DNA of 23,678 nucleotides. Source: an uncultured Clostridia bacterium. Its GTDB lineage: Bacteria > Bacillota > Clostridia > Peptostreptococcales > Anaerovoracaceae. The position numbers were made by a program, and so were the translations under genes. Location: contig CAKQVC010000003.1 of NCBI GenBank assembly GCA_934277655.1, forward strand, positions 1 through 23,678, written 5' to 3'. Numbering within the stretch: the first letter of the stretch is position 1; the number at the start of each line of letters is the position of its first letter. The notes beneath the pieces are model-generated. The model worked only from the letters and a program-made list of their open reading frames with translations. It did not search any database and had not been told where the DNA came from. This document shows, in pieces, positions 1,441 to 19,044 of the stretch.

Positions 1441-1501
1441 AATCGAAATAAAAGGGATGCATCCGAAAGCAGAGAGTGCAGGACAGGAGACAGAAAGATA
1501 C

Positions 1502-2125: not shown

Positions 2126-2199
2126 TGGGAAAAAGTTGCGGCAGGCGATTACAAACCGAAGACTGGAGCAACCAGGAAAATATGAGATGATATAGAAAG

Positions 2200-2246
2200 A
2201 CACTGCAGACGGCTGTGAGTTGACAGTTCAGGATGCAGTGTTTTTT
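2200..2246 (+). terminator. Rho-independent terminator after udk
   Basis: The perfect 8-bp stem ACACTGCA (2200-2207) / TGCAGTGT (2234-2241) encloses a small inner CTGT/ACAG pairing and is followed directly by a T run (TTTTTT from 2241). It ends the transcript carrying the beta-CASP gene and udk. It lies in the 308-base gap between 2126 and 2433; the rest of that gap holds a possible promoter and a repeat cluster. Confidence 0.85.
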
Positions 2247-2286
2247 GTGGGCATTTCTATTAGTTCGTTTCATTTTTGATTGCGTT

Positions 2287-2314
2287 TTGATTGCGTGATT
2301 TTTTGGCATAAATT
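2287..2314 (+). promoter_or_regulatory. Possible promoter for the RinA/ArpU-like gene
   Basis: TTGATT (2287-2292), a 16-base spacer, then TAAATT (2309-2314). The -10 box is weak (4 of 6). It is the best candidate in the gap and would place the transcript start at about 2320, at the first copy of the repeat described next. Confidence 0.4.
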
Positions 2315-2319
2315 CGGTA

Positions 2320-2408
2320 TTTTTCTGTAAAAATCAGGCAGGAAACAGCCTGGTTATTCTCTGTAAACTGTGCAAAAATAAGGTAGAAAAAATTTGTTTA
2401 CAGAAAAA
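2320..2408 (+). repeat. Three evenly spaced CTGTAAA elements forming nested inverted repeats
   Basis: CTGTAAA occurs at 2325 and 2361 and its complement TTTACAG at 2397, exactly 36 bases apart start to start. The outer pair extends to a perfect 12-bp inverted repeat (TTTTTCTGTAAA 2320-2331 / TTTACAGAAAAA 2397-2408). The middle pair extends to a perfect 9-bp one (TCTGTAAAC 2360-2368 / GTTTACAGA 2396-2404). Both use the same 3' arm, so the two hairpins exclude each other. The cluster lies just before the ribosome binding site of the 2434 gene. It could be an operator for a dimeric regulator or a leader RNA switch; the sequence does not decide. Confidence 0.6.
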
Positions 2409-2433
2409 GATAGAAAAGAGGATTGATGACATT

Positions 2434-2868
2434 ATGCCAGGAGAAGAGAGAGACAGAAGTACAGAATATCAGCCAAAGAAGATGAAAGAATATGTTTTGC
2501 CGGATACCGTGTACAAGCAGGCAGTGTGGGCTGCCAAAGATTTTACCCGTATGAAAAAGCAGCTAAGGGAAATGGAATATTCGATTGAAAATATTCCATC
2601 TGCGGGGGCTGATTTCCTTATGCCGGCTGTTTCAGGAGGAAGGGTCAGCGATGTTACAGGGAGAAAGGCAACAGAGATGGTGCGTATTTCTCAGAGAATT
2701 GAAAGCATTGAAAAAGCGCTGTCAGCGGTGCCCCTAAAATATAGGAGCGGAATCCGCAGCTATTTTTTTGATGGAGTTCCTTACGGAGATGAGGCACATC
2801 GGAATACATGGACAAAATGGCAGCAGATTTTCATTTATCATGTAGCAATAAATCTTGGGATTTATTAG
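2434..2868 (+). CDS. Phage-type RinA/ArpU-like putative transcriptional regulator
   Basis: A 144-aa soluble protein with ATG at 2434 and AGAGG about 12 bases upstream. Its layout resembles the small RinA/ArpU-like late-gene activators found in Clostridia prophages: an N-terminal segment YVLPDTVYKQAVWAAKD with a coiled-coil-like stretch (KDFTRMKKQLREMEYSIE), a linker with GRVSDVTGRKA, a second helix (RISQRIESIEKALSAVP), then a C-terminal YRSGIRSYFFDGVPYG-WTKWQQIFIYHVA segment like the sigma-70 region 4-related end of that family. No transmembrane segment is seen. It immediately precedes a Tad-like gene cluster, on the same strand, and could control it or itself through the CTGTAAA repeats upstream. 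No other phage genes are nearby, so it may be a domesticated regulator. The family call is by recollection of sequence pattern and is moderately sure. Confidence 0.55.
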   Translation: MPGEERDRSTEYQPKKMKEYVLPDTVYKQAVWAAKDFTRMKKQLREMEYSIENIPSAGADFLMPAVSGGRVSDVTGRKATEMVRISQRIESIEKALSAVPLKYRSGIRSYFFDGVPYGDEAHRNTWTKWQQIFIYHVAINLGIY

Positions 2869-2886
2869 AAATTTTCCTAAATTGTG

Positions 2887-2915
2887 TTGAAACCGAATTT
2901 TGTCTGTGGTAATAT
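2887..2915 (+). promoter_or_regulatory. Strong sigma-A-type promoter for the Tad-like operon
   Basis: TTGAAA (2887-2892), a 17-base spacer, TAATAT (2910-2915), with an extended -10 TGG just before it. It lies between the putative regulator and the cpaB-like gene, so the Tad-like genes can be transcribed separately from the regulator. The predicted start is about 2922. Confidence 0.8.
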
Positions 2916-2950
2916 GGCATTGTAACAAATTATACCATGAAAGGAGAAAA

Positions 2951-3559
2951 ATGGATAAAATTAAGCACAGAAGGATGGCAGGCCTGCTCATAATCATTAT
3001 GACGCTGAGCCTGCTTTGTTTTTGGGAACTTTGGGGAAGAAAAAATATCGGGTATGACAAAATTCCAGTCCTGAATCAGAGCGTGGAAGCAAACGGGCTG
3101 ATCCTGGAGAGCATGATTACCTATCGAGCCGTGGAAACTCCGGCAGGAAAGGTTCTGCGGAGTGGAAGCGAAAGGAGAATTATCGGTAAACTGGCAGGAC
3201 AGTATATACCGGAAGGTGAACCCTTGTACCCGGAATATTTCAGCGAGAATCTGTTTCAGGTCGGGGAGGCAAACGGTAAGTATGTTTTATCGGTTCCGGA
3301 TCATTGGCTGACATCCTATCCACAGACTGTACGAAGAGGCGATAAAGTTTTTTTTTACTGTAAGGGGAGCCTTGTAACCGAGGCGGTCGTAGCATATGTA
3401 AAAGACAGCAATAACCAGGAAATCGTATCTCAGGACAAGGAAAGACTTAATGCGAACGGAACTGTCGGTCTGCTTGAGGTTGTCGTTACTGCAGAGCAGG
3501 CTGAAAAACTGGGCAAGCTGGCAGCAAAGGGCAATCAGTTTGACATCCTGTATTATTGA
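2951..3559 (+). CDS. CpaB-like SAF-domain protein (pilus assembly)
   Basis: The 202-aa protein starts at ATG 2951, four bases after a strong AAAGGAG; the longer TTG-initiated version would begin inside the promoter and is rejected. It has a short basic N-terminus and one membrane anchor (about residues 10-25, LLIIIMTLSLLCFWELW). An outside region follows with a SAF/FlgA-like segment (YRAVETPAGKVLRSGSE through GQYIPEGEPLYPEYF, about residues 55-98) and a C-terminal beta-rich part ending FDILYY. In Tad/Flp systems CpaB (RcpC) is a periplasmic or extracytoplasmic assembly protein. Here it is the first gene of a same-strand set with a CpaF-like ATPase and two membrane platform-like proteins, 15 bases before the ATPase gene. 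The SAF match and the context support each other. Confidence 0.7.
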   Translation: MDKIKHRRMAGLLIIIMTLSLLCFWELWGRKNIGYDKIPVLNQSVEANGLILESMITYRAVETPAGKVLRSGSERRIIGKLAGQYIPEGEPLYPEYFSENLFQVGEANGKYVLSVPDHWLTSYPQTVRRGDKVFFYCKGSLVTEAVVAYVKDSNNQEIVSQDKERLNANGTVGLLEVVVTAEQAEKLGKLAAKGNQFDILYY

Positions 3560-3574
3560 GGAGGATTGAGAAAA

Positions 3575-4966
3575 ATGGAGAAGGAAGAAATGTTCCGGCA
3601 GGCCTGCGAAAAAGTCAGTCTCGTGATGGAGCGAAACTGGCGGGCATTCGATGATGCCGGCAAGATGCAGAGGATGGAACGTGAAAAGAGAGCGATTATG
3701 GGTTATGAAGAAGATATGCGGTTCTATAAAGAAGAAATCCATCAGATCATCCGGCAGGAAGAACTGTCTGAAGTGGAACCGCCTACATGGTATCCAAATC
3801 TGGAAGAAGGGATCTTTGCGGAGCTTTATGGGCTGGCAGGACTGGCCCCATGGGTTTACGATCAGATGGAGGTATATAAGAGGTCTCCGTCGGCAAAACT
3901 GATAGGAGAACGGCTGTATTGTATGATTGATGGCAGAGCGGTCCTTCAGCCGCAGAAGATCAGCAGGCAGAGAAGGGAACAGTTGAAGCGGGCACTTTTG
4001 ATGGCGACGCCGAAAGAAAGACTGGAACAGGGATTTCATGAGATTTATCTGCATAACGGAATCCGTCTTACTATCTTTTCGGGGGAAAAAACCAAGGATG
4101 GGCAGGATGTCATGGTTTTTCGAAAATATATCATGCAGTCACTGGATTTTCAGGCTCTGGTAGAGCTGGAAACGATTCCGCCGGACGCTCCGGATCTGTT
4201 TCGGTCTATGATACGTATTGGGTTTAATGTACTGATTGCAGGCCCTGTCCGGTCAGGAAAGACGACATTCCTTGAAATATGGCAGTGCTGTGAGGATCCA
4301 TCGCTGGAGGGAATTGCAATTTCTACAGACCCGGAGATCCCCTGGCACAAGCTGATGCCGGATGCACCGCTGATGCAGATTGTAGCGGATGGGAAAGAAT
4401 TGGAACAGATAACAAAACCAATTCTCCGTGGAGACTGTGACTATATGATCCTGGAGGAAATGAGGGATGCATCTGCTTATCGGCTGGCGCTGGACATAAC
4501 GGCTTTAGGAGCCCGAAGATGTAAAGGCACGGTGCATACAGGAAATGCAGTGGAGCTTCCTTATAAAATGGCATCTGCGATCAGCAGTCGTTTTGGAGGT
4601 GAGACAAGCAGCTTGATCCGCCAGGTGTTTTCCAGTTATCATTATGTCATGGAATTTATGCAGGATCCTGAAAATCCCGGTGCGAAAAAACTGAAGGCTG
4701 TGGTAGCTTACTGCTATGATGAGGGAATGGATCAGATCAGCGTGCATAAGATATGTGAGTATGTTCCTGAAGAAAAAAACTGGCGGTGGCATTTTTTTAT
4801 CGGGACAGAACAGGAAAAAACAGGTGCTTTGCGACCGAAGGAGATGAATGCTATGAAGCACATGCTGAAGCAGATGGAAAAGAGAAACCCAATCATGGGG
4901 CATACAACCATCTATCCAAGGTATTACCATCCCAACATGAAGAAAGGAGTTGAACTGCGATGTTAG
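3575..4966 (+). CDS. CpaF/TadA-like secretion ATPase
   Basis: A 463-aa cytoplasmic ATPase of the type II/IV secretion (CpaF/TadA, VirB11-like) family that would power assembly of a pilus or export of a substrate. It starts at ATG 3575 behind GGAGG with a 10-base gap. The N-terminal 200 residues are charged and helical and divergent from standard CpaF. Walker A is GPVRSGKT (223-230). The acidic Walker B region is DYMILEEMRD (289-298), replacing the common DRIIVGEVRG pattern. The His-box equivalent is GTVHTGNA, with His321. The end of the gene (TAG at 4964) overlaps the next ATG at 4960 by 7 bases, so the genes are translationally coupled. Sequence divergence suggests an unusual branch of the family, but the core motifs leave the ATPase call secure. 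Confidence 0.8.
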   Translation: MEKEEMFRQACEKVSLVMERNWRAFDDAGKMQRMEREKRAIMGYEEDMRFYKEEIHQIIRQEELSEVEPPTWYPNLEEGIFAELYGLAGLAPWVYDQMEVYKRSPSAKLIGERLYCMIDGRAVLQPQKISRQRREQLKRALLMATPKERLEQGFHEIYLHNGIRLTIFSGEKTKDGQDVMVFRKYIMQSLDFQALVELETIPPDAPDLFRSMIRIGFNVLIAGPVRSGKTTFLEIWQCCEDPSLEGIAISTDPEIPWHKLMPDAPLMQIVADGKELEQITKPILRGDCDYMILEEMRDASAYRLALDITALGARRCKGTVHTGNAVELPYKMASAISSRFGGETSSLIRQVFSSYHYVMEFMQDPENPGAKKLKAVVAYCYDEGMDQISVHKICEYVPEEKNWRWHFFIGTEQEKTGALRPKEMNAMKHMLKQMEKRNPIMGHTTIYPRYYHPNMKKGVELRC

Positions 4967-5940
4967 AAGCTTCCATGATTCTGCTGCTTGTTACAGGGCT
5001 GATCCTGCTGCTTTTACCTGAGATCCAAGAAGAATGGTACAAGTTACGGGAAAGAGTGATAGAATGGATGCATTCACTGCAGCTGCCGGAGAGTGAATCT
5101 AATGAGACAGGCACAGAAAATGCAGTGGTCGTATCAGATTCCGGCGACAAATTGATAGAATATATTCGAAGTTTGCTGAAAATTACATTGTCTATGGGCA
5201 GTGACAAGAGCGTACGGCTCTTTTGGATTCTCAGCATCATCTGCGGAGGTATGGTGCTGCTTCTTTTGACTCATAGGATTTCAGCAGGGTTGACGATTGC
5301 TGCTGCGACAGCAGCTCTGCTTCTTCCCTATGGCTTACTTCGAATGCGTCTGCAGGAAATTCGGATTCAGAGTTCGCGGGAAGGAGAAATTCTGATCACG
5401 GAGCTGACCGAAAATTATAAGATACACTACTGCAATATGCAAAAAGCGATTGAAGTAACAGCAATGACGATAGAGGATGCACCGAATTGCAAGAGGATTT
5501 TGTTCCACTTATCGAAGGGCCTGAATCGGGCAGGTTCGTCTGTTGCAATCGAACGGCTGTTAGATGAATTTCGTCTTTCCATCAATACATCCTGGGCAAA
5601 TATCCTGTCGTCCAATATTTTCTTTGCACTGGTTTCCGGCATCCATGTAACTGAGGCACTTTCTGATCTTTCGGAGGCAATTGCGGGAGCTAGAAAGGTA
5701 GAAGAATATGCCCGGCGCGAAAATCAGGAATCAAAGTTAATGTTGAAATATCTGGCTCCGCTTTTTTATGGATTTACGATCTTCGGAGGAATCAAGATGT
5801 TTGGTCTGACTGCAGATAAATTTCTTCATTATCAATTTGGAACGCAGATAGGACTGACATGGTTTGTCGGGTCAGCCATTCTGTATGTCAGCGGCATTTT
5901 CGTTTATCATTTTGTCAGTCACACTAAACTGGATTTTTAA
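4960..5940 (+). CDS. TadB-like membrane platform protein (type II secretion F-like)
   Basis: A 326-aa membrane protein starting at ATG 4960 with AAAGGAG 10 bases upstream, overlapping the end of the ATPase gene. It has an N-terminal hydrophobic segment (about 5-20), a charged linker to about residue 80, two close membrane segments (about 86-127), a cytoplasmic helical region (about 130-265, including FFALVSGIHVTEALSDLSEAI, the GspF/T2SSF-like pattern) and two C-terminal membrane segments (about 268-284 and 299-320). That architecture matches TadB-like inner membrane platform proteins, which couple the ATPase to pilin polymerisation. The gene is followed in the same frame by the TadC-like gene: after the TAA at 5938 no further stop occurs before the next start. 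Family assignment is by architecture and context. Confidence 0.6.
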   Translation: MLEASMILLLVTGLILLLLPEIQEEWYKLRERVIEWMHSLQLPESESNETGTENAVVVSDSGDKLIEYIRSLLKITLSMGSDKSVRLFWILSIICGGMVLLLLTHRISAGLTIAAATAALLLPYGLLRMRLQEIRIQSSREGEILITELTENYKIHYCNMQKAIEVTAMTIEDAPNCKRILFHLSKGLNRAGSSVAIERLLDEFRLSINTSWANILSSNIFFALVSGIHVTEALSDLSEAIAGARKVEEYARRENQESKLMLKYLAPLFYGFTIFGGIKMFGLTADKFLHYQFGTQIGLTWFVGSAILYVSGIFVYHFVSHTKLDF

Positions 5941-5976
5941 CGAAGGTGGTTATGGGGAAAAATTAAAAAGCAGGAT

Positions 5977-6540
5977 ATGAAAGACATAAGAAAATTAAGA
6001 GAAAAATATAAAAACGCAGGAACTATAGCACGGCAGTTGTGTAAGCGGCTGTCTTTTTGGATCCATTTCAACGATGCTGTCCGGGAAAGCGAATTGTATG
6101 ACAGCTGTATTCTGTTAAAAAACCTGGCTCTCGTATATCGCCAGATGCCACTGTCAGCGGATATGATCCTGGAATTATTGATGGAAAACAGCTGGAAGCT
6201 GAAGCCTGTTTACAGGGAAGTGCTAAATTTATATCGAAACGGAAAGAGGCAGGAAGCCTTTTCTTTTTTTGCCAGTGCAGTCGGCACGAAGAGTGGACGT
6301 AGTTTCAGCGCTATCCTTGCAAAGCTTGATCAGATCAATCCGGCAGAGCTCTTAGAACAGATGAAAGTTTTTCAGAACATGATGGCAGAAAAAAGGATGA
6401 CGCAGGCTGTCCGTAAGGCACAGAAAAACAGCTGGCTTACGACCATATGGTCAACGGCAACCCTTTTCGCACTGATGATCAACTTTGTGATCGTCACAGT
6501 TCTTCTGGACACTCTTCAAGTTCTGAAAAATATTTTTTAG
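5977..6540 (+). CDS. Short TadC-like membrane protein
   Basis: A 187-aa protein, shorter than the roughly 300 aa of typical TadC. It has a basic N-terminus, a helical cytoplasmic half (SADMILELLMENSWKLKPVY..., ELLEQMKVFQNMMAEKRMT) reminiscent of a single T2SSF domain, and one clear C-terminal membrane segment (about residues 157-182, ATLFALMINFVIVTVLL). The ATG at 5977 has only a weak AGG two bases upstream. A better SD-like AAGGTGG at 5944 stands too close to an ATG at 5952 that opens only MGKN-stop. The frame is open back to the TAA of the previous gene, so reinitiation or readthrough is possible. Likely a partner of the 4960 product in the membrane platform. The function call is tentative. 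Confidence 0.5.
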   Translation: MKDIRKLREKYKNAGTIARQLCKRLSFWIHFNDAVRESELYDSCILLKNLALVYRQMPLSADMILELLMENSWKLKPVYREVLNLYRNGKRQEAFSFFASAVGTKSGRSFSAILAKLDQINPAELLEQMKVFQNMMAEKRMTQAVRKAQKNSWLTTIWSTATLFALMINFVIVTVLLDTLQVLKNIF

Positions 6541-6559
6541 ACAAAAAAGGTAGAAAACT

Positions 6560-6589
6560 TTGAACTTTTAATAGAAAACACTTGATTAT
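6560..6589 (+). promoter_or_regulatory. Possible internal promoter before the small-peptide genes
   Basis: TTGAAC (6560-6565), an 18-base spacer and GATTAT (6584-6589) lie in the only real gap (66 bases) inside the Tad-like cluster, just ahead of the small hydrophobic ORFs. Extra transcription of pilin-like genes would fit, but the -10 box is weak. Confidence 0.35.
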
Positions 6590-6606
6590 ATGAGGAGGCA
6601 GAGAAA

Positions 6607-6777
6607 ATGAAAAATCTGATTATTATCATTGGAACGATTCTGCTTGGTGCACTGATTGTTAATACGCTCGTATTGGGAGATAATAACTCTTTGAAGAGTA
6701 CGGCGGAGGATATCATGGAAGAAGGCACCAGCGCAATTATGAATACCATTGATTTTGGAAAGGCAGGAGGGGCATAG
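6607..6777 (+). CDS. Small membrane peptide, pilin-like candidate 1 (56 aa)
   Basis: A 56-codon ORF with an excellent ribosome binding site (GAGGAGG at 6592-6598, 8 bases before ATG 6607). The product begins MKNLIIIIGTILLG, has one hydrophobic helix (about residues 3-23) and a polar, mildly acidic C-terminal part ending NTIDFGKAGGA. Size and one-helix design resemble Flp-type pilins, but there is no Gly/Glu prepilin peptidase cleavage signature. Its N-terminus is repeated in the next ORF and in the 7433 ORF. It is followed 3 bases later by the next small gene. Likely a structural subunit or secreted peptide of the Tad-like machine; that is inference. Confidence 0.65.
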   Translation: MKNLIIIIGTILLGALIVNTLVLGDNNSLKSTAEDIMEEGTSAIMNTIDFGKAGGA

Positions 6778-6780
6778 GCA

Positions 6781-6918
6781 ATGAAACAGCTAATCATTAT
6801 CATGGGGATGATCTTGCTGGGAGTCTTCGTCTTCAATTTGATGGCTGGCAGTCAGCCGGAGAGTCTGAAGTCGGTCAGTCTGCAGGCAATCCGGCAGACC
6901 ATGGAGGCATGGCAGTGA
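6781..6918 (+). CDS. Small membrane peptide, pilin-like candidate 2 (45 aa)
   Basis: A 45-aa ORF starting at ATG 6781, 10 bases after AGGAGG (6765-6770), which lies in the end of the preceding ORF. The product begins MKQLIIIMGMILLG, has one hydrophobic helix (about residues 3-22) and a short polar tail (GSQPESLKSVSLQAIRQTM). The SLKS and alternating tail resemble the SLKSTAEDIM of candidate 1, so the two look like paralogues. The stop TGA overlaps the GTG start of the following gene. No signal peptidase or prepilin peptidase site is evident. Confidence 0.65.
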   Translation: MKQLIIIMGMILLGVFVFNLMAGSQPESLKSVSLQAIRQTMEAWQ

Positions 6919-7436
6919 AAGATCTGATTACAACGATTGCTTCGATTCTGGTCTTGATGATGTTTTTATTGCAGTTTACTGCGAACCAAAGGACTTTTAC
7001 AGAGATTGCGGGGGTAGAAAACGCAATAAAAATTTTCAGGATAACCGCCGAGTCGAAAGGAAAGATTGGGGATGAAGATGTGAGCAGTATGCATACAGCA
7101 GCGGCGAAAGCAGCCAGATGTGATCTATCAGAGGTCGAGACAATATTGAATCCGGATAAAAACGAAGGATCAGAATATGCGTCCTATCAGGTACGAGTGC
7201 CGATCAGAGGCATTATCGGTGCAGCTCATATGTTAGGAGGGCTTACTAAAGAAGAAAACACGCTGTGGTACACATCATCCGGCATTATCGCATTGCACGA
7301 GAAAGATCGAGCAATTCCGGAAGGAACGGAAGGCGAAACGCCTGCAGAAGGAGAAAACAGACCGGGAACAGAAGAAAAAGCGGAGCAAGAAGAATCAACA
7401 GGAAAAGCGCAAGTTTTGGAAAGGTCAGAGAAATGA
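6915..7436 (+). CDS. TadE/minor-pilin-like membrane-anchored protein
   Basis: I prefer the GTG at 6915: GGAGG (6903-6907) lies 7 bases upstream and the start overlaps the previous TGA as GTGA. The ATG at 6909 would have almost no spacing and adds only two residues. The 173-aa product begins MKDLITTIASILVL and has one N-terminal hydrophobic helix (about residues 4-21) followed by FTANQRTFTEIAGVENAIKIFR, the layout of TadE-like or DUF4320-like pseudopilins. An extracytoplasmic alpha/beta domain follows to about residue 120, then a low-complexity acidic tail rich in E, G, A and T (about 130-173). The N-terminal signature is shared with the flanking small peptides. The stop overlaps the ATG of the 32-aa ORF. 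Its role as a minor pilin is inferred from architecture and position. Confidence 0.6.
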   Translation: MKDLITTIASILVLMMFLLQFTANQRTFTEIAGVENAIKIFRITAESKGKIGDEDVSSMHTAAAKAARCDLSEVETILNPDKNEGSEYASYQVRVPIRGIIGAAHMLGGLTKEENTLWYTSSGIIALHEKDRAIPEGTEGETPAEGENRPGTEEKAEQEESTGKAQVLERSEK

Positions 7437-7531
7437 AAAATATGATCATTACGATGGGGCTTATGATCCTGTTTGCTATGCTGTGTTCCTTTCAATGTGA
7501 AATTAACGCTAAAATTTTACAAAACTATTGA
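7433..7531 (+). CDS. Small membrane peptide, candidate 3 (32 aa)
   Basis: A 32-aa ORF whose ATG overlaps the preceding TGA (ATGA) and has GGAAAGG 8 bases upstream, so it is likely to be translated. The product MKNMIITMGLMILF... has one hydrophobic segment (about residues 3-18) and a short tail with two cysteines (CSFQCEINAKILQNY). The N-terminus matches those of the 6607 and 6781 products. The stop codon (7529-7531) lies inside the -35 box of the next promoter. It could be a truncated copy of the small pilin-like family or a functional peptide. Confidence 0.5.
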   Translation: MKNMIITMGLMILFAMLCSFQCEINAKILQNY

Positions 7532-7543
7532 TTTTTTTTAGCG
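7507..7543. repeat. Inverted repeat flanking the -35 box (possible operator)
   Basis: CGCTAAAA (7507-7514) and TTTTAGCG (7536-7543) form a perfect 8-bp inverted repeat around the TTGATT -35 box at 7528-7533. No T run follows the second arm, so it is unlikely to be a terminator for the upstream operon. An operator role is possible. Confidence 0.4.
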
Positions 7544-7556
7544 GAAACCTTATAAT
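7528..7556 (+). promoter_or_regulatory. Promoter of the riboswitch/P-type ATPase transcript
   Basis: TTGATT (7528-7533), a 17-base spacer and a perfect TATAAT (7551-7556). The start would be at about 7563, immediately before the aptamer at 7566. The -35 box overlaps the stop codon of the 32-aa ORF. Confidence 0.85.
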
Positions 7557-7565
7557 ATTCCTATT

Positions 7566-7673
7566 GTAAGAGGGAGTAACTTGCATCCGCAGCAGGATGT
7601 GATATTGTGCGTCATCTCAATCAGTGCCTTTGGATGGCTGATTCGCAAATATCTGAAATAGTAAGACTTTTAC
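7566..7673 (+). promoter_or_regulatory. yybP-ykoY (Mn2+-sensing) riboswitch aptamer
   Basis: The conserved core features are present: GGGAGTAAC (7572-7580; family consensus GGGGAGUAGC), the cross-junction loop GCGTCATCTCAATCAG region, and GTAAGAC (7661-7667; consensus GCAAGACC). P1 is GUAAGAG (7566-7572) with CUUUUAC (7667-7673), 7 bp including one G-U pair. Further stems are GCATCC/GGATGT (7583-7588 / 7595-7600), GATATT-TGCG with CGCAAATATC (7601-7611 / 7644-7653, one bulged G) and AATCAG/CTGATT (7619-7624 / 7638-7643). This family binds Mn2+ and commonly controls Mn2+ exporters, including P-type ATPases. It sits between a strong promoter and the P2A ATPase gene. Confidence 0.85.
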
Positions 7674-7711
7674 CGTATATTTTAAAATAATATATGGTGG
7701 GAGTCTTTTTT
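7663..7711 (+). terminator. Riboswitch expression-platform terminator
   Basis: AAGACT (7663-7668) pairs with AGTCTT (7702-7707). Inner U-G wobbles (TTT/GGG) and ACCGTATAT with ATATATGGT (9 bp including G-U) extend the stem, and a T run to 7711 follows. Its 5' arm uses the 3' strand of aptamer stem P1 (7667-7673), so ligand-stabilised P1 should prevent the terminator and switch the ATPase gene on. Confidence 0.8.
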
Positions 7712-7739
7712 GTATTCCCGCCGGAGAAAGGAAACCAGA

Positions 7740-10379
7740 ATGCAATATTATCTGAAAACTACAGAGGCTGTCATGAAAGAACTTGACAGCAGACAAAATG
7801 GACTGGACAGCTGGGAAGCAGAAAGTCGTCTGGAAAAACACGGACGTAATAAGCTTGCTGAGGCTAAAAAGGACTCGCTTTTTAAGCGATTCATCACGCA
7901 GCTGGCAGATCCGATGATTTTGGTTCTGATCGTGGCAGCGGCTATCTCAGGTGTAACCTCCTATTATGCAGGAGAAAGCTTTGCAGATGTTGTGATTATC
8001 ATGGCAGTTGTTATCATCAATGCCCTTCTGGGTATGTATCAGGAGAGCAAAGCAGAAAAGGCAATCGAAGCATTGCAGGAAATGGCAGCGGCTACAAGCA
8101 GAGTCCTCAGAAATGGAAAAATTGAGACAGTGAAAAGTGAAAATCTGGTCCCGGGAGATATCGTCCTTCTGGAGGCTGGAGATTCTGTACCGGCAGATGG
8201 CAGAATACTGGAATCCGCCAGTCTGAAAATAGAAGAAGCGGCATTGACCGGAGAAAGCGTTCCTGCCGAGAAAACCGCCGACACGCTTGATGCAGACGGT
8301 GCAAAAGATGTACCACTGGGTGACCGGAGAAACATGGTATATATGGGAAGCACGGTTGTGTATGGACGAGGAAAAGCAGTCATCTGCGAAACCGGTATGG
8401 ATACGGAGATGGGAAAAATCGCACATGCACTGACGCAGGCACAGGAGGGTAAAACACCTCTTCAGTTGAAACTGATCCAACTCAGCAAATTTCTGACGAT
8501 GCTTGTACTGGCTATCTGTATTGTTATCTTTGCAGTCAGCCTGATTCGAGCAGAGTCCATAGATGGAAGTGTTCTTTTAAATACCTTTATGGTTGCAGTC
8601 AGTCTGGCAGTTGCTGCAATACCGGAAGGGCTGGCAGCAGTGGTAACTATTGTTCTTTCCATTGGTGTAACCAATATGAGCAAAAAAAATGCGATCATAC
8701 GAAAGCTGACTGCCGTAGAAACATTGGGTTGTGCACAGATTATCTGCTCAGATAAGACAGGAACTTTAACTCAGAACAAGATGACGGTTGTCGATACCTA
8801 CGGAGAGGATGAACAAAAACTGGCAGAAGCAATGGCACTCTGCTGTGATGCCAGCGTGCAGGAAGGAGAGAATACAGCATCAGGCGAACCAACGGAATGT
8901 GCACTTGTAAATTATGCACAGAAAATCGGACTGGACAAGAGGAAGCTGGAAGAAAAACTCCCTCGAATCGGAGAAGTGCCCTTTGACAGCAACCGAAAGA
9001 TGATGTCTACAATACACGAGAACAGGCAAGAACATAAATGGATCCAGTACACGAAGGGTGCACCGGACGAAGTGCTGAAACGTTGCACGAAAATTTTGCG
9101 GGGCGGAAAAGCGGAAGATATGACGGAGGATGACAGACAGGCAATTCTTCTGGCAAATAAGAAAATGGCAGATCAGGCATTGCGTGTTCTGATGGCGGCA
9201 ATGGCAGTTTATGATACGGCACCGCAGCAATTCCTGTCGGAAACTTTGGAACGGGAGTTGTGTTTCTTAGGACTGGAGGGGATGATCGATCCTGTCAGAC
9301 CGGAAGTAAAGGATGCCATCAGGGAATGTAATAAAGCAGGGATCAGGCCGGTTATGATTACAGGAGACCATATTGATACGGCTTCAGCAATCGGAAGAGA
9401 ACTTGGGATCCTGGATGAGCAGCATCATGCAGTGACCGGTGCTATGTTAAACGAACTTACCGATGAACAGTTCGAAAACGAAATTGAACATATCAGTGTT
9501 TATGCCAGAGTTCAGCCGGAGCATAAAGTTCGTATTGTGAACATGTGGAAACGAAAAGGTTTTGTTACGGCTATGACCGGCGATGGTGTTAACGATGCTC
9601 CAAGCATTAAGGCAGCTGACATTGGTGTTGGAATGGGAATTACCGGAACCGATGTTACAAAAAATGTGGCTGACATGGTGCTTGCCGATGACAACTTTGC
9701 CACGATTGTAGGAGCAGTTGCCGAGGGACGGAGGATTTATGATAATATCCGGAAGTCTATTCAGTTTCTGCTTGCATCTAACATGAGTGAGGTTCTCAGT
9801 ATCTTTGCAGCAACAATGCTTGGCTTTACGATCTTGAAACCGGTGCATCTTTTATGGATCAATCTGATTACGGACTGTTTTCCGGCATTGGCGCTTGGAA
9901 TGGAGAAACCGGAAGATGATATTATGAAACGGAAGCCAAGAAAGACATCTGACGGCGTATTTGCAGGAGGACTGGGTGTGGATATGCTTTATCAAGGTGT
10001 TGTGCTTACGGTGCTGACCATGGCAGCTTACTTTATCGGGCATTATATGGAAGCAGGTGTATGGGAAATTACCGACAGCCCGGATGGTACTACGATGGCG
10101 TTTCTGACGTTGTCTATGGCAGAGATCTTTCACAGCTTTAACATGCGTTCGCAAAGAGGCAGTCTGTTTCATATCCGGACAATGAATCCTGCACTGATTT
10201 GGTCGGCATTGGCAAGTTTGGCAGCGACAACAATCGTTATCTATGTTCCGTTTTTATCAAATGCTTTTGAATTTGAGCATATCAGTCTGGCGGAATATGG
10301 AACGGCGTTAGGACTGGCTTTTCTTGTGATACCTGTGGTGGAGATCATCAAGTTTGTTCAGAGAAAATGCAGTCGATAA
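7740..10379 (+). CDS. P2A-type cation-transporting ATPase, probable Mn2+/Ca2+ exporter
   Basis: An 879-aa P-type ATPase of the plasma membrane that moves a divalent cation out of the cell at the cost of ATP. ATG 7740 has AAAGGA 7 bases upstream; an in-frame TTG at 7710 lies in the terminator and is rejected. Motifs in order: an N-terminal cation ATPase domain, LTGESVPAEKT (actuator loop), AAIPEGLAAVVTI (M4, PEGL), the phosphorylation site SDKTGTLT (Asp338), KGAPDEVL (nucleotide binding), MTGDGVNDAPSIKAADIG (hinge), NMSEVLSIF (M5) and LWINLITDCFPALALGMEKP (M6, with the N..TD of SERCA-like pumps). These are marks of the Ca2+/Mn2+ (P2A) group. The upstream yybP-ykoY riboswitch favours Mn2+ export, as reported for the riboswitch-controlled P-type ATPase YoaB of Lactococcus. 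Transcription ends at the 10501 hairpin. Substrate is inferred, class is secure. Confidence 0.92.
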   Translation: MQYYLKTTEAVMKELDSRQNGLDSWEAESRLEKHGRNKLAEAKKDSLFKRFITQLADPMILVLIVAAAISGVTSYYAGESFADVVIIMAVVIINALLGMYQESKAEKAIEALQEMAAATSRVLRNGKIETVKSENLVPGDIVLLEAGDSVPADGRILESASLKIEEAALTGESVPAEKTADTLDADGAKDVPLGDRRNMVYMGSTVVYGRGKAVICETGMDTEMGKIAHALTQAQEGKTPLQLKLIQLSKFLTMLVLAICIVIFAVSLIRAESIDGSVLLNTFMVAVSLAVAAIPEGLAAVVTIVLSIGVTNMSKKNAIIRKLTAVETLGCAQIICSDKTGTLTQNKMTVVDTYGEDEQKLAEAMALCCDASVQEGENTASGEPTECALVNYAQKIGLDKRKLEEKLPRIGEVPFDSNRKMMSTIHENRQEHKWIQYTKGAPDEVLKRCTKILRGGKAEDMTEDDRQAILLANKKMADQALRVLMAAMAVYDTAPQQFLSETLERELCFLGLEGMIDPVRPEVKDAIRECNKAGIRPVMITGDHIDTASAIGRELGILDEQHHAVTGAMLNELTDEQFENEIEHISVYARVQPEHKVRIVNMWKRKGFVTAMTGDGVNDAPSIKAADIGVGMGITGTDVTKNVADMVLADDNFATIVGAVAEGRRIYDNIRKSIQFLLASNMSEVLSIFAATMLGFTILKPVHLLWINLITDCFPALALGMEKPEDDIMKRKPRKTSDGVFAGGLGVDMLYQGVVLTVLTMAAYFIGHYMEAGVWEITDSPDGTTMAFLTLSMAEIFHSFNMRSQRGSLFHIRTMNPALIWSALASLAATTIVIYVPFLSNAFEFEHISLAEYGTALGLAFLVIPVVEIIKFVQRKCSR

Positions 10380-10500
10380 AGTTTCAAAGACAGCATTTAC
10401 TATTTTGACGCAGAAACTGATGGAAAAACTGCAGTTTGCAGAGGAATGTGAAAACAGCTCTGCCTAAAAAATGAAATAAATAAAAAGTGAAAGTAAGGGG

Positions 10501-10554
10501 AATCCCGCTTCAGACAGAAACAGAAGATGTTTCTGCCAGATGCGGGATTTTTTT
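10501..10554 (+). terminator. Rho-independent terminator of the P-type ATPase gene
   Basis: AATCCCGC (10501-10508) pairs with GCGGGATT (10542-10549); an inner stem CAGAAAC/GTTTCTG (10515-10521 / 10529-10535) continues it, and a run of seven T follows. A smaller hairpin GCAGAG/CTCTGC (10438-10443 / 10458-10463) lies upstream without a T run. The gap 10380-10645 holds nothing else clear: a TTGACA at 10561 has only poor -10 matches. Confidence 0.9.
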
Positions 10555-11659: not shown

Positions 11660-11664
11660 AGGGA

Positions 11665-14600
11665 ATGGATCTAAACATGAAAAGAAGAAAGGTTATAAAA
11701 AAAGCAGCGGCAACGCTTCTGGCATTTGCCATTGTTTTATCGTCTTTCCCACTTGGCATGCTGATGGGAACGACAGAAAAAGCAGATGCAACCATGCGAG
11801 GCAGACTGGGAATGGAAAATCTGAGCGGGTACCGGTTTACAAACAGTCGGTATATGCAGATTTTTACGGCCGATTATCAAAATCAGACGATATATAAAGG
11901 CAGTGCGACCGAAGCCGGGATGATGATGAAACGGTACTTGGTTGATGATACGCTGGTGTTCTGTATGGAACACGGTGTCGTACAGAAAAGCATGACATTG
12001 AAAGCAACTGATTATAGAAAATCATCCTTTTATGCTGCATACAATAATGCGGGAAAAGGCTATGCCGTGCGTAATATGTATCGTGTCTTAATGTATGGTC
12101 CGGTCAGTGGAAGTTCCATTACGGAACTAAATCAATTAGGGTTTTCTGACTCGAAGTACTATGGTAAAAACAGTCGATCTTATACACTCTCCGACTGGAT
12201 TGCAGCCACACAGATGCTGATCTGGGAGTCACAGCAACTGATGAGAAATAAGAATTTTGACAAGGTTGCAAATGGAATGTTTTACCAGGATTCTTGGAGA
12301 GGTAATAAGACAGATCCAATTGAAAAAAACCATTATGCCAATCAGATTGCAGGAACTGCAGCTATCGATATTTATAATTTTATGGCAGGCAAAATAAAAG
12401 AAAAAATCAGTTTTGATACATCGATTGCGTCTGCAGACCAAAGCAAACCCAAAACACTGACTGCAGCAGCAACCGGAGAACTGCCGTACACCTTAACGAT
12501 CAAAGGTGGATCAAAAGCCGGGGCAGTTACCGTTACGGACGAAAAAGGAAAGAAAATAAAGGGGCTTCAGATCAATTTTGATCAAAGAAGAAGAGAATAT
12601 AAGCTTGTCATATTCGACGAAAGCGTATGGAATAAGACGATCGTTGTCCGTCATGATGATTCTGCCGCTCAGAGAGCAGAAAAGTATTTAAAAAAGAACA
12701 ACGAAAAATACAGCCGGTATTTTTGGGAATACGAAACGGCAGACAGCCATACACAGGGTATGATCTCAGGACTGACTGACCCAGATGCAGGTTATCTGAA
12801 ACTGGTAAAAGGTAAGGAAAATAAAGAGCTTTCCGAAGAAAGGTGTCATCCTGATGATCCGGATGTTTTTCCGACACTCTATTTTCCAATCGAGAAAATC
12901 GATGCAAATCCGGGATTTGATAATGATTCGCATACACCGATGGGCGATGCGAAACTAAATGCTGTCTATACCCTGGAGAGAAAGATTGGGAAAAACTCCT
13001 GGGAAAAGATTGATCAGATACAAATGGATGAATTGGGAAAGCAGGAAGTTTTCTCGGATCAACCATTTCAGACGGCAGAAGATCTGCTTGCATATCGGAC
13101 CGAAAGTGGAAGTCTGACCGGATGTGCACATCCGATCACGGACAGTGAAGGAAATATTATTGGATATCGGCATATCAGTCCGAAAACTCCGACAAAGAGA
13201 GAATGGGATGTGCTGGTACAGTACAGAATTACAGAAACACGGCCGGAGGGCAGATATATTGATCCGGATACCTGGCAGGGAGAACGAGAATACAGTTTTT
13301 CCTACAAAGCGGAAACGCATGATACCTGCAGCTATTGTCTGGACTGTGACAGTCTGCCGTGGACAGCGATAACATATGATTTCAGATGGAAAACAGAAAA
13401 AGGAGAAGGCACTGAATATACCACGGGCGAGACGGAGACACCGGAGGACGAACTCAATTATGACAATGAAATTTTCGTCAATGACTGCTTCCGCGGAAAT
13501 CTTCAGATCATCAAGTCCAATGAGAAAGAAAATCCGTTCAAAGACTCCCTGGCAGGAGGGGCAGACTCCAATATTTCCCTGGATTCACGCTGGACAGTCA
13601 AACTGCAGTCAAAAGGATTCGAAAATGAAGAGTATGTACATCTGGTCAGCGGGAAGCCGGAAATCCTGACAGGAGGAACGCATCAATACACTGTTTCCCG
13701 CGACAAAGGAGCAACGATCTGCAACAGTGAAAATCCACTGATCCCAGGCACGAACGGAACGCTGATCGTAAAGGATCTGCCATTCGGCACGTATATTGTC
13801 ACAGAGGTCAAGGCAGATGACCCAATGTATGTTCTGGAGGAATTTACAGTTACAATTGATGAGCATAATGGAAATAACGGGCCTGTTAACGGGCAGGGGA
13901 GTTTCGGCGGCTATGATAAGACTGGAATAAGCCCATCAGGGGGATCCGCATCCGGAAGCGGTGACTATTGGAATAATCGGTATGATGTGAATATCCGCGA
14001 CAAGATAAAAGAGAATAAAGTAAAGATCGTAAAGACTGACAGTGAAACCGGAAAGAAAATCCCTTTGGAAGGAACAAAGATTTTCATCCGCTATAAAGGG
14101 AATCCAGATTATACGGACACGGAAAACAGGGAAAAGTTCGGCCCTTCGGGTACAGAAGCGAAGAATACTTATAATCGATTTTTACCGAATGCAGAGTCGA
14201 TCAATTCCAAAAGTCAAAATTATGTTTTTGAACTGGACGAAAACGGGACATTTTCCATTCCTTACAGACTCCCTTATGGAAGATATGAGGTGCTTGAGTG
14301 GCTTTTACCGGAAGGGTATTATGTCGGGGCATATGGCACTGATGGTATTGCCAGATCACACAATTTTGGACTGGTTGAAGAAGGACAGTTAGCGGTGAAG
14401 TCTCCGAAAGATAGGTTCGACGGAACGGTGGCTGATTACGGAATCTACAATAAAGATGGAAAAAAAGTTGTTTATCAGGATAAAGAAAAATATTCCTTTG
14501 ATCAGTTAAAAGATATGGTAACAAACCAATACACTTTTGAAGTCACAAAACAAACCCTGCACAAGGATGGAAACTATACACAGCTGGTAACTTTTGATGG

Positions 14601-17600
14601 CAAAAGACAGAATGTCGATGCATCCTATGACAAAGGCGAATATCCCTACATTGACTATTATCTGATATCAGCAATTCCGAACAACGCAGTAAAAGGAAAA
14701 ATTGAAGTTGAGAAAATCGGAGAGGTGCTGACGGGATTTCAGAAAACAGAAAAAGAGGGGTATACGATTTTCGAACCTGTTTTTGAGATGATTTCTTCGT
14801 TAAAGGATACGGTATTTGGGATCTTTGCTGCCGAGGATATTCAACTTCGTGACGGAAGTGAGGGACCGGAAATCTACGACAGCCTGACAGACGAAAAGAT
14901 CCTTTTACAACAGGAAAAACGTACACATTTATCAAATATATGGGAAAACATCAAGGCTTTCGCAGATAAACTACTCCATCCGAAAGAGTATACCGGTGCA
15001 AGATATGAGATTTCTACCTTTTCGCATGCATCCGGGGCACAGTTATGGTCAATTTTGGAACGGGAAACTTCTGAAACGAACGAGAAACGTACACTTTACA
15101 TTTCTCCGGAGCAGAAAGACACGAAGATGACCGGATCCTGGCAGACGTCAGAAGGAAATCTGGACTACCGATGGGACGTGGAAGTTACCATGAAAAATCA
15201 GGCAGATGGAAAAAACATTACGGATGTGAATCTTACTAAAACAACCTCCGTGCATGCAGGTGCAGAAGATCACCTTACTCTGACGACGATGAAAGGATGT
15301 GTCGGAGAGACGGAGCTTGATCCAATCCGAAACTACATGCCGATTTCCGATCCGACAAATTGGAAAGAAAGCTCTGCACTGGAAGCTTATGAGCATACGT
15401 ATTGGTATGAAGCGGATGGAAAAAGTACGGAATATGCCGATGGTACGGAATACAAGGATGACAGATTTACCTTCGGGGATCACACGGAAGTAGATCTTTC
15501 TCAATACAGTGCAGAACGATATTTGATAAAAGATTATGATCTTTATCTGTTGACTGCAGATGATATGAAACAGGAAGAACGAAAAACGGGAGAAAAACAA
15601 GTTTTGATCTCGGAAGGTATCGATGCAGATGGTGATGGAAAATATGATGGACCAGAGGATATTGCACCGGTCTATAAGAATGTTGACGTCATGGACACAA
15701 AGACAGCTTTTGAATGGGAACATAACGTGACATTGAAAGAAGGACTGCATGCCGGAGATTGTGCAGTAATGATCCAGGAAGATAAGACCTGCTCTGTCGC
15801 AGTCAAAGGTTATTATACAGCAGGAACATATACAGAATATGAAAGACCGTTCCGCTGGATAAATTCCGATGAAGAGGGAACACCGGAGAAGGAATATCGT
15901 GTCCCGGAAGGATGGACGCAGAAAGCACTTTCCGGTGACCGGAGAGAAGACCCTCAATATGTAGTTATTTTCAGAAAAGACGAAGCAGATGGACCAACAC
16001 AATATAAAGTTTTGCTGCAAGACGGACGCACCTGGCAGAAATGCTCTGCTGAAGGAAATTTCGTGCAGGCTGCAGTACAGGTTTATCAGATTCGTTATAC
16101 GCAGGCAGCTGACGATGAAAATGGAATTTTGATCGACATGGATGGGATCACAGTACAGGCAGGAAATGATCACAAGGATGGTGCTGCCAGAACAATTATT
16201 GATGGACCGGAGGATTTTCTGCACACGGCGGTAAAGGAAGTGGGACAGGGTTATCGGTGGTATGAAGAAAACGGAAGTCTTGTGTTCGAGACAACGTCGG
16301 AAACTGCACCGGTTTATTTCCTCTGGAAGGATGGAATCCGGGCAGAAATGAGTTATAAAGGCAACTCCTGTTATGCTGTCGTGACAGTTTCGGATGATGC
16401 CGTTGACTATTTAGGAAAACAAATTGTACCAATACTGAATTTTGTCCATTATGATTCCGAAAACAAAAAAGTACCAAAAATTTTAGACTGGTATTCATCT
16501 TTGACGCCGGAAAATCCTGTGAAAGAATTTGGCTCCAGAGAAGGACTTTCAGATGGAGTCAGTGTGAAAGCTACAAGGCATGAAAAAGCAGAAAGCGGAG
16601 CAAAAACCTGGTATACGATAGAAATCTCAACGAATCAGGAAGAAAATGTACCTTTGGAAATGACATTTGCCGATGGTTATACGATGTCTGTGTATTGTGC
16701 ACAGACAGCAAGTGGAAATGGTGTAGGCGTGATCGAACTGTATAATGTTTATAAGACGACCAGATATCCGGCGTCCTCTCTTGTAGAGACCATTACAACA
16801 GGCAGTGACGGGAAAGCAGTTTCAAGAAGTCTTCCTCTGGGAACTTATATTATCAGAGAACTTGACACGGAAAACGGATATGTGAATGATGGCAGCGAGC
16901 GGACGGTAACTTTGTCTTATAAGGATCAATTCACACCGCTTGTCTGGAAAGCTGCAAAATTTAAAAATTCTTTTATGAAAGTGCAGCTAGACTTAAAAAA
17001 AGTTTTTGAAACAGGATGGCAGACAGGGGTTTATGAAGCGGCACATGCCGGACAGGAGGCTGTCTTTGGAATTTATACAGCAGAAGAGATTTCAGCAAAG
17101 GGAAAAGGCATTATCCATGTGACAGAAAAGACAGCTGCTGAAGATACGCTGGTCGGGGTGTTAAGAATCGGATGCGGCAGTGATGGAATACCGTTTACTA
17201 CAGGGACAGAAGTAAAACTCCCGGAGGGAACCTACTACCTGAAAGAAATAAAGGCGCCGGCAGGGTATCAGCTGGGATCTGTAAAATATCTTTTCCATGT
17301 CGGAGAAGAAAAACAAAATCGTTCTGATGCTTGCACCTTTGATATGAAAACACCGGATGGCATTTATGGTTCATTAAGGATGACAGAGAAAGATATAGTA
17401 AAAACAGAAATTATTATCGAAAACAGAGAACCGATGCCACCTATTACTGTAGATAGCATACTTTATAACCTGGACAAGAATACAGATGACGAGGAAAAGG
17501 GTGTAGCCGTTGATGTGTCTGACGCTTTTTCAAAAGTGACTATTGAGACAAAATCGGATACACAGACAGAAGTCATTTTACCAAACGGTAGAAAGCTAAC

Positions 17601-19044
17601 GATTATCCCGGCAGAAAACCATTTTTCCTACAGGATTGACGAAGAAAACTTTACATGGATGCCGACGATATCCTATACAGGATATTATGCAGCGTATGAA
17701 GAAGTATGGGAAGGAATAGCACAGGATGAAGTAAAAACATTCTTAGAAGAAAGTTCAAGAGAAGCAGATACAGAACCGGACGTGCCCGAACAGAATGCAC
17801 TTAACCGCAGAACTTCTGTTTCTATGACAGGTGCAGGATCGGATAAAGAAAAACTGATCGTGAAAGCGGAGATAACTCACAGCATTGAAAAATCGAAACT
17901 GCAGAAACAGTACGAATCATCAGGCCTGCCTTCACAGGATATAATCCGTCAGATGGAAGAACATAAAGCTGTCATTACGGCAGAGAAGGGAACTTCTGCT
18001 ATCGTTCTTCCGGAAAGCCATGTCTGCAAAGAAGGAAAAACTTCAGAAATCCGAACCGTAACGGAAGAACAAAGAATTGAAATTACAGCTGGGCAGACGG
18101 CAATTTTTACGGCAGAGTGCGGTGCAAAAGTAAAAGTGGCTATGAATGAAAATGGGAATCTCAGCATGGAAATCCAGCATGTTTTGGAGGGAAGCTTCGA
18201 GGAAGAGAAAGAAAGTGAAGTGAAATCCGACAGAAACAGCCTGGAAAAAATCAAGGAACATTTTCAGTTCGCTAAAAACGTGACGTTTGCCAGACAGGAT
18301 ACATCTGCGGAGACTTTGATGATCAAGATCAATTCCGATAATGAAGAGGCACTGGCTGTAAAAAATGATCGCAAGCCGCCGGAAAATCCGCCTTATAAAC
18401 CAACGGAACCGGAGAATCCGTCTCCGGCTCCAGCTATAAAGACAAGTGCGTCCGGAAAAATAAGTGGTAACCATGTGATAGCTCCAGAGAAGAAAGCCGT
18501 GGTTGTCGATACCGTTTCTTATGAAAATTTAATGATAGGTCAGAAATACCATCTGAAAGGCATTTTGATGGATAAAATCACAGGAAAACCATTGCTGAAA
18601 AGCGGAGAAACAGTTTCTGCAGAAATCTGGTTTATACCCGAATCGGTTTCTGGGACAGTTGAAGTTATCTTTACCTTTGATGCATCGGAACTGGGAGACA
18701 GAGAGCTTGTTGTGTTTGAGAAACTGTTTATACAAAAAAAGGAGTCAGATGGAGAAACGTCAGAGTACCTGATCGCGTCACACGAAGATCTGCAGGATCA
18801 GGCACAGACTGTGTATGTACGAGAACAAGAACCGGAAGAACCGGAACAGCCAGAAAAACCACACCATCCGCAAACAGCAAAAAAACCAGTAAATCCTGAT
18901 AGACCATCAAAAACTCCAGGGGAAACCGTGCCGCCAAATGTTCCGAAGACCAGTGATGAAACAAATCCTGTTTTATATATTCTTCTTCTGGCAGCCAGTG
19001 TATGTATGCTTACAAAACTCTGTTGTACATATAAGAAAAAATAG
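11665..19044 (+). CDS. Giant cell-wall-anchored surface protein with thioester, Cna-B/SpaA and T-Q ester domains
   Basis: A 2459-aa probable adhesin. The start is ATG 11665, or ATG 11677 (AAAGGG 13 bases upstream; MKRRKVIKKAA is a good n-region). The signal peptide ends near ADA at residue 42. A thioester (TQXA-type) domain occupies about 45-240: Cys100 in VFCMEHG and Gln183 in ATQMLIWE would form the bond that can capture a host or surface ligand. A CxxCxxC (C555, C558, C561) follows, then Cna-B/SpaA domains near 606-735, 785-930, 1010-1060 plus 1693-1740 (apparently one domain split by about 600 residues) and 1745-1885. An EF-hand-like loop DADGDGKYDGPE lies at 1320-1331. After an acidic, low-complexity region, a VaFE/T-Q ester domain runs 2270-2385 (Thr2283 in VDTVSY, Gln2381 in AQTVYV). 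The C-terminus has a proline-rich stalk, VPKTS (2426-2430), a hydrophobic segment and TYKKK. No sortase gene is in view. Domain edges are approximate. Confidence 0.9.
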   Translation: MDLNMKRRKVIKKAAATLLAFAIVLSSFPLGMLMGTTEKADATMRGRLGMENLSGYRFTNSRYMQIFTADYQNQTIYKGSATEAGMMMKRYLVDDTLVFCMEHGVVQKSMTLKATDYRKSSFYAAYNNAGKGYAVRNMYRVLMYGPVSGSSITELNQLGFSDSKYYGKNSRSYTLSDWIAATQMLIWESQQLMRNKNFDKVANGMFYQDSWRGNKTDPIEKNHYANQIAGTAAIDIYNFMAGKIKEKISFDTSIASADQSKPKTLTAAATGELPYTLTIKGGSKAGAVTVTDEKGKKIKGLQINFDQRRREYKLVIFDESVWNKTIVVRHDDSAAQRAEKYLKKNNEKYSRYFWEYETADSHTQGMISGLTDPDAGYLKLVKGKENKELSEERCHPDDPDVFPTLYFPIEKIDANPGFDNDSHTPMGDAKLNAVYTLERKIGKNSWEKIDQIQMDELGKQEVFSDQPFQTAEDLLAYRTESGSLTGCAHPITDSEGNIIGYRHISPKTPTKREWDVLVQYRITETRPEGRYIDPDTWQGEREYSFSYKAETHDTCSYCLDCDSLPWTAITYDFRWKTEKGEGTEYTTGETETPEDELNYDNEIFVNDCFRGNLQIIKSNEKENPFKDSLAGGADSNISLDSRWTVKLQSKGFENEEYVHLVSGKPEILTGGTHQYTVSRDKGATICNSENPLIPGTNGTLIVKDLPFGTYIVTEVKADDPMYVLEEFTVTIDEHNGNNGPVNGQGSFGGYDKTGISPSGGSASGSGDYWNNRYDVNIRDKIKENKVKIVKTDSETGKKIPLEGTKIFIRYKGNPDYTDTENREKFGPSGTEAKNTYNRFLPNAESINSKSQNYVFELDENGTFSIPYRLPYGRYEVLEWLLPEGYYVGAYGTDGIARSHNFGLVEEGQLAVKSPKDRFDGTVADYGIYNKDGKKVVYQDKEKYSFDQLKDMVTNQYTFEVTKQTLHKDGNYTQLVTFDGKRQNVDASYDKGEYPYIDYYLISAIPNNAVKGKIEVEKIGEVLTGFQKTEKEGYTIFEPVFEMISSLKDTVFGIFAAEDIQLRDGSEGPEIYDSLTDEKILLQQEKRTHLSNIWENIKAFADKLLHPKEYTGARYEISTFSHASGAQLWSILERETSETNEKRTLYISPEQKDTKMTGSWQTSEGNLDYRWDVEVTMKNQADGKNITDVNLTKTTSVHAGAEDHLTLTTMKGCVGETELDPIRNYMPISDPTNWKESSALEAYEHTYWYEADGKSTEYADGTEYKDDRFTFGDHTEVDLSQYSAERYLIKDYDLYLLTADDMKQEERKTGEKQVLISEGIDADGDGKYDGPEDIAPVYKNVDVMDTKTAFEWEHNVTLKEGLHAGDCAVMIQEDKTCSVAVKGYYTAGTYTEYERPFRWINSDEEGTPEKEYRVPEGWTQKALSGDRREDPQYVVIFRKDEADGPTQYKVLLQDGRTWQKCSAEGNFVQAAVQVYQIRYTQAADDENGILIDMDGITVQAGNDHKDGAARTIIDGPEDFLHTAVKEVGQGYRWYEENGSLVFETTSETAPVYFLWKDGIRAEMSYKGNSCYAVVTVSDDAVDYLGKQIVPILNFVHYDSENKKVPKILDWYSSLTPENPVKEFGSREGLSDGVSVKATRHEKAESGAKTWYTIEISTNQEENVPLEMTFADGYTMSVYCAQTASGNGVGVIELYNVYKTTRYPASSLVETITTGSDGKAVSRSLPLGTYIIRELDTENGYVNDGSERTVTLSYKDQFTPLVWKAAKFKNSFMKVQLDLKKVFETGWQTGVYEAAHAGQEAVFGIYTAEEISAKGKGIIHVTEKTAAEDTLVGVLRIGCGSDGIPFTTGTEVKLPEGTYYLKEIKAPAGYQLGSVKYLFHVGEEKQNRSDACTFDMKTPDGIYGSLRMTEKDIVKTEIIIENREPMPPITVDSILYNLDKNTDDEEKGVAVDVSDAFSKVTIETKSDTQTEVILPNGRKLTIIPAENHFSYRIDEENFTWMPTISYTGYYAAYEEVWEGIAQDEVKTFLEESSREADTEPDVPEQNALNRRTSVSMTGAGSDKEKLIVKAEITHSIEKSKLQKQYESSGLPSQDIIRQMEEHKAVITAEKGTSAIVLPESHVCKEGKTSEIRTVTEEQRIEITAGQTAIFTAECGAKVKVAMNENGNLSMEIQHVLEGSFEEEKESEVKSDRNSLEKIKEHFQFAKNVTFARQDTSAETLMIKINSDNEEALAVKNDRKPPENPPYKPTEPENPSPAPAIKTSASGKISGNHVIAPEKKAVVVDTVSYENLMIGQKYHLKGILMDKITGKPLLKSGETVSAEIWFIPESVSGTVEVIFTFDASELGDRELVVFEKLFIQKKESDGETSEYLIASHEDLQDQAQTVYVREQEPEEPEQPEKPHHPQTAKKPVNPDRPSKTPGETVPPNVPKTSDETNPVLYILLLAASVCMLTKLCCTYKKK

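Follow-up and report, generated by a model that had tools for sequence, protein, structure and literature searches.

The window analysed here is the whole stretch of 23,678 nucleotides at positions 1 to 23,678 (forward strand) of contig CAKQVC010000003.1 (assembly GCA_934277655.1), from an uncultured Clostridia bacterium of the Anaerovoracaceae. The subject of this report is a reduced Tad-like locus within it, whose small pilin-like proteins begin without a recognizable prepilin leader. According to the list of open reading frames (ORFs) of the window, nine ORFs lie on one strand between positions 2434 and 7531, each where the initial annotation had placed it; from 2951 onward the genes overlap or are spaced within approximately 70 bases. 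In agreement with the initial annotation, none of these ORFs was recognized as a prepilin peptidase, a TadZ or a secretin.

The first ORF (2434..2868; + strand, as for all features below) lies 5' of the core genes and encodes a putative phage-type regulator of 144 amino acids (aa). It matched phrog_11237 (E=3.2e-13), a family of unknown function, and weakly phrog_36 and phage transcriptional regulators; the phage-type character first proposed for it was supported to this extent. A SAF/CpaB(RcpC)-like membrane protein follows (2951..3559, with an in-frame TTG at 2900). Its own Pfam search gave no SAF match, and the assignment draws on L105 (loci of relatives are labelled L001 onward), which reached 21.2 bits with SAF PF08666 (cut-off 21) and matched TIGR03177 at E=1e-4, below the cut-off. 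The CpaF/TadA-like secretion ATPase (3575..4966) carries the Walker A motif GPVRSGKTT, the Walker B region ILEEMRD and the His box TVHTGN. Two putative platform proteins come next: a TadB-like membrane protein of 326 aa (4960..5940), named from its position and weak profile matches, and a short TadC-like protein of 187 aa (5977..6540), named from its position, outgroup profiles and alignment.

Four small leaderless proteins complete the locus, at the position that Flp and TadE-type pilins occupy in a canonical Tad locus. The Flp-like s1 (6607..6777, 56 aa, MKNLIIIIGTILLG...) is conserved and preceded by the ribosome-binding site GAGGAGG, and the Flp-like s2 (6781..6918, 45 aa, MKQLIIIMGMILLG...) follows it. 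The TadE-like protein e (6915..7436) measures 173 aa from GTG 6915 or 175 aa from ATG 6909, and f (7433..7531) is shortened to 32 aa, which hold the membrane helix only.

The genes of the locus are real and conserved. Scanning of genome contigs with 29 aligned ATPases yielded 46 related loci, and the full core set (SAF-like protein, ATPase, TadB, TadC, two small proteins, e and f) was matched in 38 of them, more than chance. The gene-order search in Clostridia proposed in the initial annotation was thus positive, and its small ORFs, pilin-like in layout, proved conserved. Six further loci are cut by contig ends, and the last two lack a matched e (L033) or a matched f (L040). The regulator was matched in 31 of the 46 loci of this gut clade, which are mostly from Anaerovoracaceae-type Clostridia and include Emergencia timonensis, Aminicella lysinilytica and Eubacterium pyruvativorans. 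When proteins were searched with the distant branch as query, the names returned were Anaerovorax, Sinanaerobacter, Anoxybacterium and Aminipila. In a genome survey with a 29-row ATPase model (E<=1e-40) drawn from the gut clade only, the ATPase was found in 156 of 296 sampled genomes of the family of E. timonensis, in 60/297 of its order and in 4/398 of its phylum, the order and phylum samples containing family members too.

The same gene order was seen in Thermincola-like Clostridia (distant loci L109-L111) and on plasmids of Bacillus velezensis, Alicyclobacillus acidocaldarius and Paenibacillus cellulosilyticus, the three inspected out of 27 matching plasmid records. It runs SAF, TadZ/ParA, ATPase, two membrane proteins, small proteins and proteins of approximately 130 and 165 aa; a small s protein was not matched in L109 and L110. 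A record labelled Aeromonas (NZ_KP738729, possibly mislabelled) holds an ATPase that resembles those of the Bacilli plasmids (34.8% identity).

N-termini of the small proteins

With few exceptions across families, s1, s2, e and f start with Met-Lys, followed by a hydrophobic helix. The small proteins carry no class III (prepilin) signal peptide; 233 of them from related loci (118 s, 59 e and 56 f) were examined for alternative starts. Met-Lys begins 115 of the 118 s proteins, and 181 of the 233 proteins have no other in-frame ATG, GTG or TTG upstream; a motif resembling a ribosome-binding site stands at the nearest start in 95/118 s, 37/59 e and 32/56 f. The N-terminal segments of s, e and f match one another (69-85), and their matches to those of canonical Flp, TadE and TadG stay below 5.

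As a control, canonical Flp, TadE-like and TadG-like proteins were taken from six of the same genomes, in 24 rows with one protein counted twice. In 21 rows K/R/Q-G precedes the helix, and in most, except the TadG-like ones, a Glu comes soon after. Of the other three, one is out of frame and two, TadE-like proteins of L061 and L062, are themselves leaderless: they begin Met-Lys-x-Val-Glu, with an in-frame stop directly upstream.

An A24 prepilin peptidase is encoded in 37 of 38 genomes of relatives, outside the locus. In eight of ten inspected cases (L047, L048, L051-L056) its gene stands beside yhbY/truA-like genes (read by eye), and in the short stretches around such lone A24 genes no pilus gene was seen. 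That a Tad prepilin peptidase may be encoded apart is stated by Denise et al. 2019 (PMC6668835).

The protein e was aligned in 38 sequences. AlphaFold2 modelled it with a predicted local distance difference test (pLDDT) of 86.7; a long N-terminal helix spans residues 2-50, a short second helix and three strands make up the rest of the fold, and the acidic tail was modelled with low confidence. The full-length f of L013 was predicted to share this plan (pLDDT 93.9).

ATPase, platform proteins and TadZ

Among the products of the locus in the window only the ATPase passes a Pfam cut-off (PF00437, 33 bits against 24.9). Its best NCBIfam match is TIGR03819 (TadA family), far under the model cut-off, and the matches from a sequence search of solved structures include PilT-type and CpaF ATPases. 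With canonical TadA from six of the same genomes the family aligned by hhalign at 99.8 (E=2e-28). The secretion-family homology assumed in the initial annotation stands for the ATPase; for TadB and TadC it is weakly supported. The Walker B region that had been described as unusual is indeed present, and no defect accompanies it: the catalytic E, the Walker A Lys and the His-box His are conserved in 68/68 aligned ATPases, that of the window included. The residue preceding the catalytic E is E in the clade of the window (50 rows), A (once G) in the Anaerovorax clade and its sisters, and G in the outgroups and in both canonical TadA sequences aligned, which marks EE before MRD as a clade signature. 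The Anaerovorax clade and its sisters (L093-L100, L103, L105-L107 and L112-L114) often have Ala or Ser in place of the Gly that precedes the Walker A Lys, as in GAVRTAKTT, and these ATPases may be kinetically unusual.

The identities of the platform proteins as TadB and TadC are weakly supported by profile comparison. The TadB-like family profile matched canonical TadC at 44.0 and canonical TadB at 19.9 over approximately 150 columns, and the TadC-like profile reached at most 3.0 against the canonical ones (13.5-18.3 for the outgroup subset). The TadB and TadC profiles of the outgroups match each other at 83.9, those of the canonical proteins at 94.3. T2SSF gave no match for 11 TadB-like members and was not among the listed matches of 22 TadB/TadC-like members.

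The TadZ-like protein of relatives matched the canonical TadZ profile at 97.3 (hhalign). It is encoded in 47 of 68 loci; the window, with no TadZ between the SAF-like gene and the ATPase, is among the 21 without. In the midpoint-rooted tree of 68 ATPase rows the deepest lineages hold TadZ-bearing loci only, the TadZ state needs four changes (shuffled mean 18.2), and the plasmid loci possess a TadZ-like gene as well; because of this, TadZ is most likely ancestral and lost in the lineage of the window, whose exact place in the tree is not firmly supported. Where TadZ is present f measures 112-204 aa (three exceptions), and where it is absent 29-65 aa (two exceptions), and TadC-like proteins measure 281-299 aa in the outgroups, where the alignment shows an N-terminal part that is missing from the 187 aa of the window protein. 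The copy in the window is thus reduced further, with no TadZ, a short TadC and an f of 32 aa. The description of a reduced Tad-like locus in the initial annotation was apt, and the direction of the change can be read: TadZ, a longer TadC and a full-length f are the state of the outgroups and of most relatives.

Interpretation and alternatives

The locus resembles the Tad (type IVc) pilus (TadZABC, RcpC/CpaB, Flp, TadEF, TadV) in the family of its ATPase, in the TadZ of relatives, in two putative platform-like proteins and a putative SAF/CpaB-like protein, in small helical proteins with TadE/F-like ones after them, and in the gene order of canonical loci in the same genomes. What sets it apart is that its small proteins have no class III leader and that it includes neither TadV nor a secretin; the window copy also lacks TadZ and a full f. 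In a review (PMC10191384) prepilins are defined by the class III signal peptide, and its Tad list has TadV, Flp and TadE/F; the defining leader was not found here, and the locus is therefore called Tad-like rather than a Tad pilus. Imam et al. 2011 (PMC3244431) describe a small number of tad-like loci from clostridia, among them C. kluyveri and C. bolteae, with tadA, tadC, tadZ and rcpC homologues and no recognized prepilin signal motif. As described there, those Gram-positive loci have tadV and species-specific genes, unlike the present locus with no tadV and four conserved leaderless small proteins. The Bacilli plasmid loci share the order SAF-ParA-ATPase and the leaderless small proteins, but are plasmid-borne and have a longer TadZ, a full TadC and a full f; two annotated plasmid records label all products 'hypothetical' except SAF, ATPase and, once, the ParA family. 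In the literature searched, a named system of this kind was not found, the loci of Imam et al. 2011 being compared by their description only (PMC3244431).

It is proposed, tentatively and at slightly less than even confidence, that the locus encodes a reduced envelope machine of Tad type (type IVc-like), in which an ATPase drives a pseudopilus built of leaderless pilin-like proteins. The subunits would be made already in mature form, s1 and s2 serving as Flp-like all-helical subunits and e and f as TadE/F-like tip or minor subunits. They may insert with the N-terminus inside, Lys2 acting as topology signal. The platform proteins and the SAF/CpaB-like wall-side protein would correspond to TadB, TadC and RcpC of the machine, and ATPase and TadB/C would extract the subunits into a short pseudopilus with no cleavage by a prepilin peptidase. 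Its role is probably at the surface, where it might extend, display or export the wall proteins often encoded downstream. The sequences show the homology, the gene order, the missing leaders and the intact motifs of the ATPase; filament assembly by the locus is what we infer. The leaderless TadE-like proteins of L061 and L062 blur the leader control; at the same time they make pre-processed pilins more plausible, because their Met1 coincides with the start of a mature pilin and Glu stands at position 5.

A wider claim, possible but held with more reserve, is that of a Bacillota-wide branch of the type IV filament superfamily with no prepilin processing, in which a Tad-type ATPase would load the leaderless subunits directly and whose genes lie on chromosomes in Clostridia and on plasmids in Bacilli. 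Cleavage of the leader by a prepilin peptidase counts as the step that opens and defines the assembly of type IV filaments, and a conserved, widespread leaderless machine would make the need of cleavage for membrane extraction directly testable. If the proposal is true, gut Clostridia would possess an unnamed surface system that leader-based pilin finders would miss; the findings suggest surface structures built or powered without the usual tag-cutting enzyme.

The strongest alternative, judged unlikely, takes the small proteins for bitopic assembly proteins that stay uncleaved, comparable to PilN/PilO or GspL/M, and the locus for a motor or scaffold with no filament of its own, perhaps serving the canonical Tad pilus of the same cell. 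PilN/PilO and GspL/M have a short cytoplasmic N-terminus, one membrane helix and a small alpha/beta domain; the missing leaders fit such proteins, and the modelled plan of e and f resembles that of a pilin and equally that of a bitopic assembly protein, structure searches favouring neither. The s proteins of 45-56 aa are, however, unlike PilN/O. A T2SSE-family match stronger than the ATPase of this locus (E<=1e-36) was present in 38/38 relatives tested; this second CpaF-type ATPase, which like the lack of leaders is absent from the initial annotation, comes mostly from a canonical Tad locus. Canonical TadA (E<=1e-60) was found in 271/296 family genomes, and in L111 canonical Tad genes lie directly upstream. 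On the other hand, the locus comes with a full set of SAF-like, Z, A, B and C genes, as would not be expected of an accessory, and seven of the 156 genomes bearing it are among the 20 listed genomes without canonical TadA (five further such genomes were unlisted), which may be incomplete.

That the locus is instead a secretion device for large adjacent wall proteins, a Gram-positive analogue of the type II pseudopilus, is improbable. Secreted-like proteins do cluster downstream, and SpaA-repeat surface proteins lie directly 3' of f in L001 and L015, but the wall proteins start with segments that resemble the signal peptides of Sec substrates (by eye), the surface protein of the window ends in a sortase-like motif (also by eye), and in 26/55 loci no such protein of 300 aa or more is encoded within 5 kb downstream. 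The peptide exporter suggested in the initial annotation received no direct support. An ordinary Tad pilus locus with leaders overlooked through wrong start codons can be set aside as very improbable, for the other in-frame starts present in the remaining 52/233 small proteins are sometimes Met-Lys itself, those listed mostly lack a motif resembling a ribosome-binding site, the s proteins almost uniformly begin with Met-Lys, and the deposited annotation of two plasmids begins s, e and f at the helix.

Genomic neighbourhood

An MBL (metallo-beta-lactamase)-nuclease-like or uridine kinase gene (names from sequence reading) lies upstream, as in the window, in 28 of the 46 loci. Secreted-like proteins of at least 300 aa within 5 kb were encoded downstream in 29/55 loci and upstream in 5/53 (Fisher p=1e-6, the loci not being independent). 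In the window, outside the operon, a surface protein of 2459 aa (11665..19044) has SpaA and TQ ester domains, the sortase-like C-terminus mentioned above and a weak match, under the cut-off, to a thioester domain; its relatives were found near the locus in 8/67 other loci (L001, L002, L014-L016, L026, L032 and L038). Positions 10646-11545 encode a secreted-like protein of 299 aa with no meaningful family match, relatives of which lie near the locus in L014, L016, L031 and L032. Proteins with repeats resembling S-layer homology (SLH) domains (read by eye) lie 3' of f in L109, L111 and L112. In L111 the canonical Tad set with leaders (628-5940) stands directly before the leaderless locus (6006-12583), as if the two sets arose or travel in tandem.
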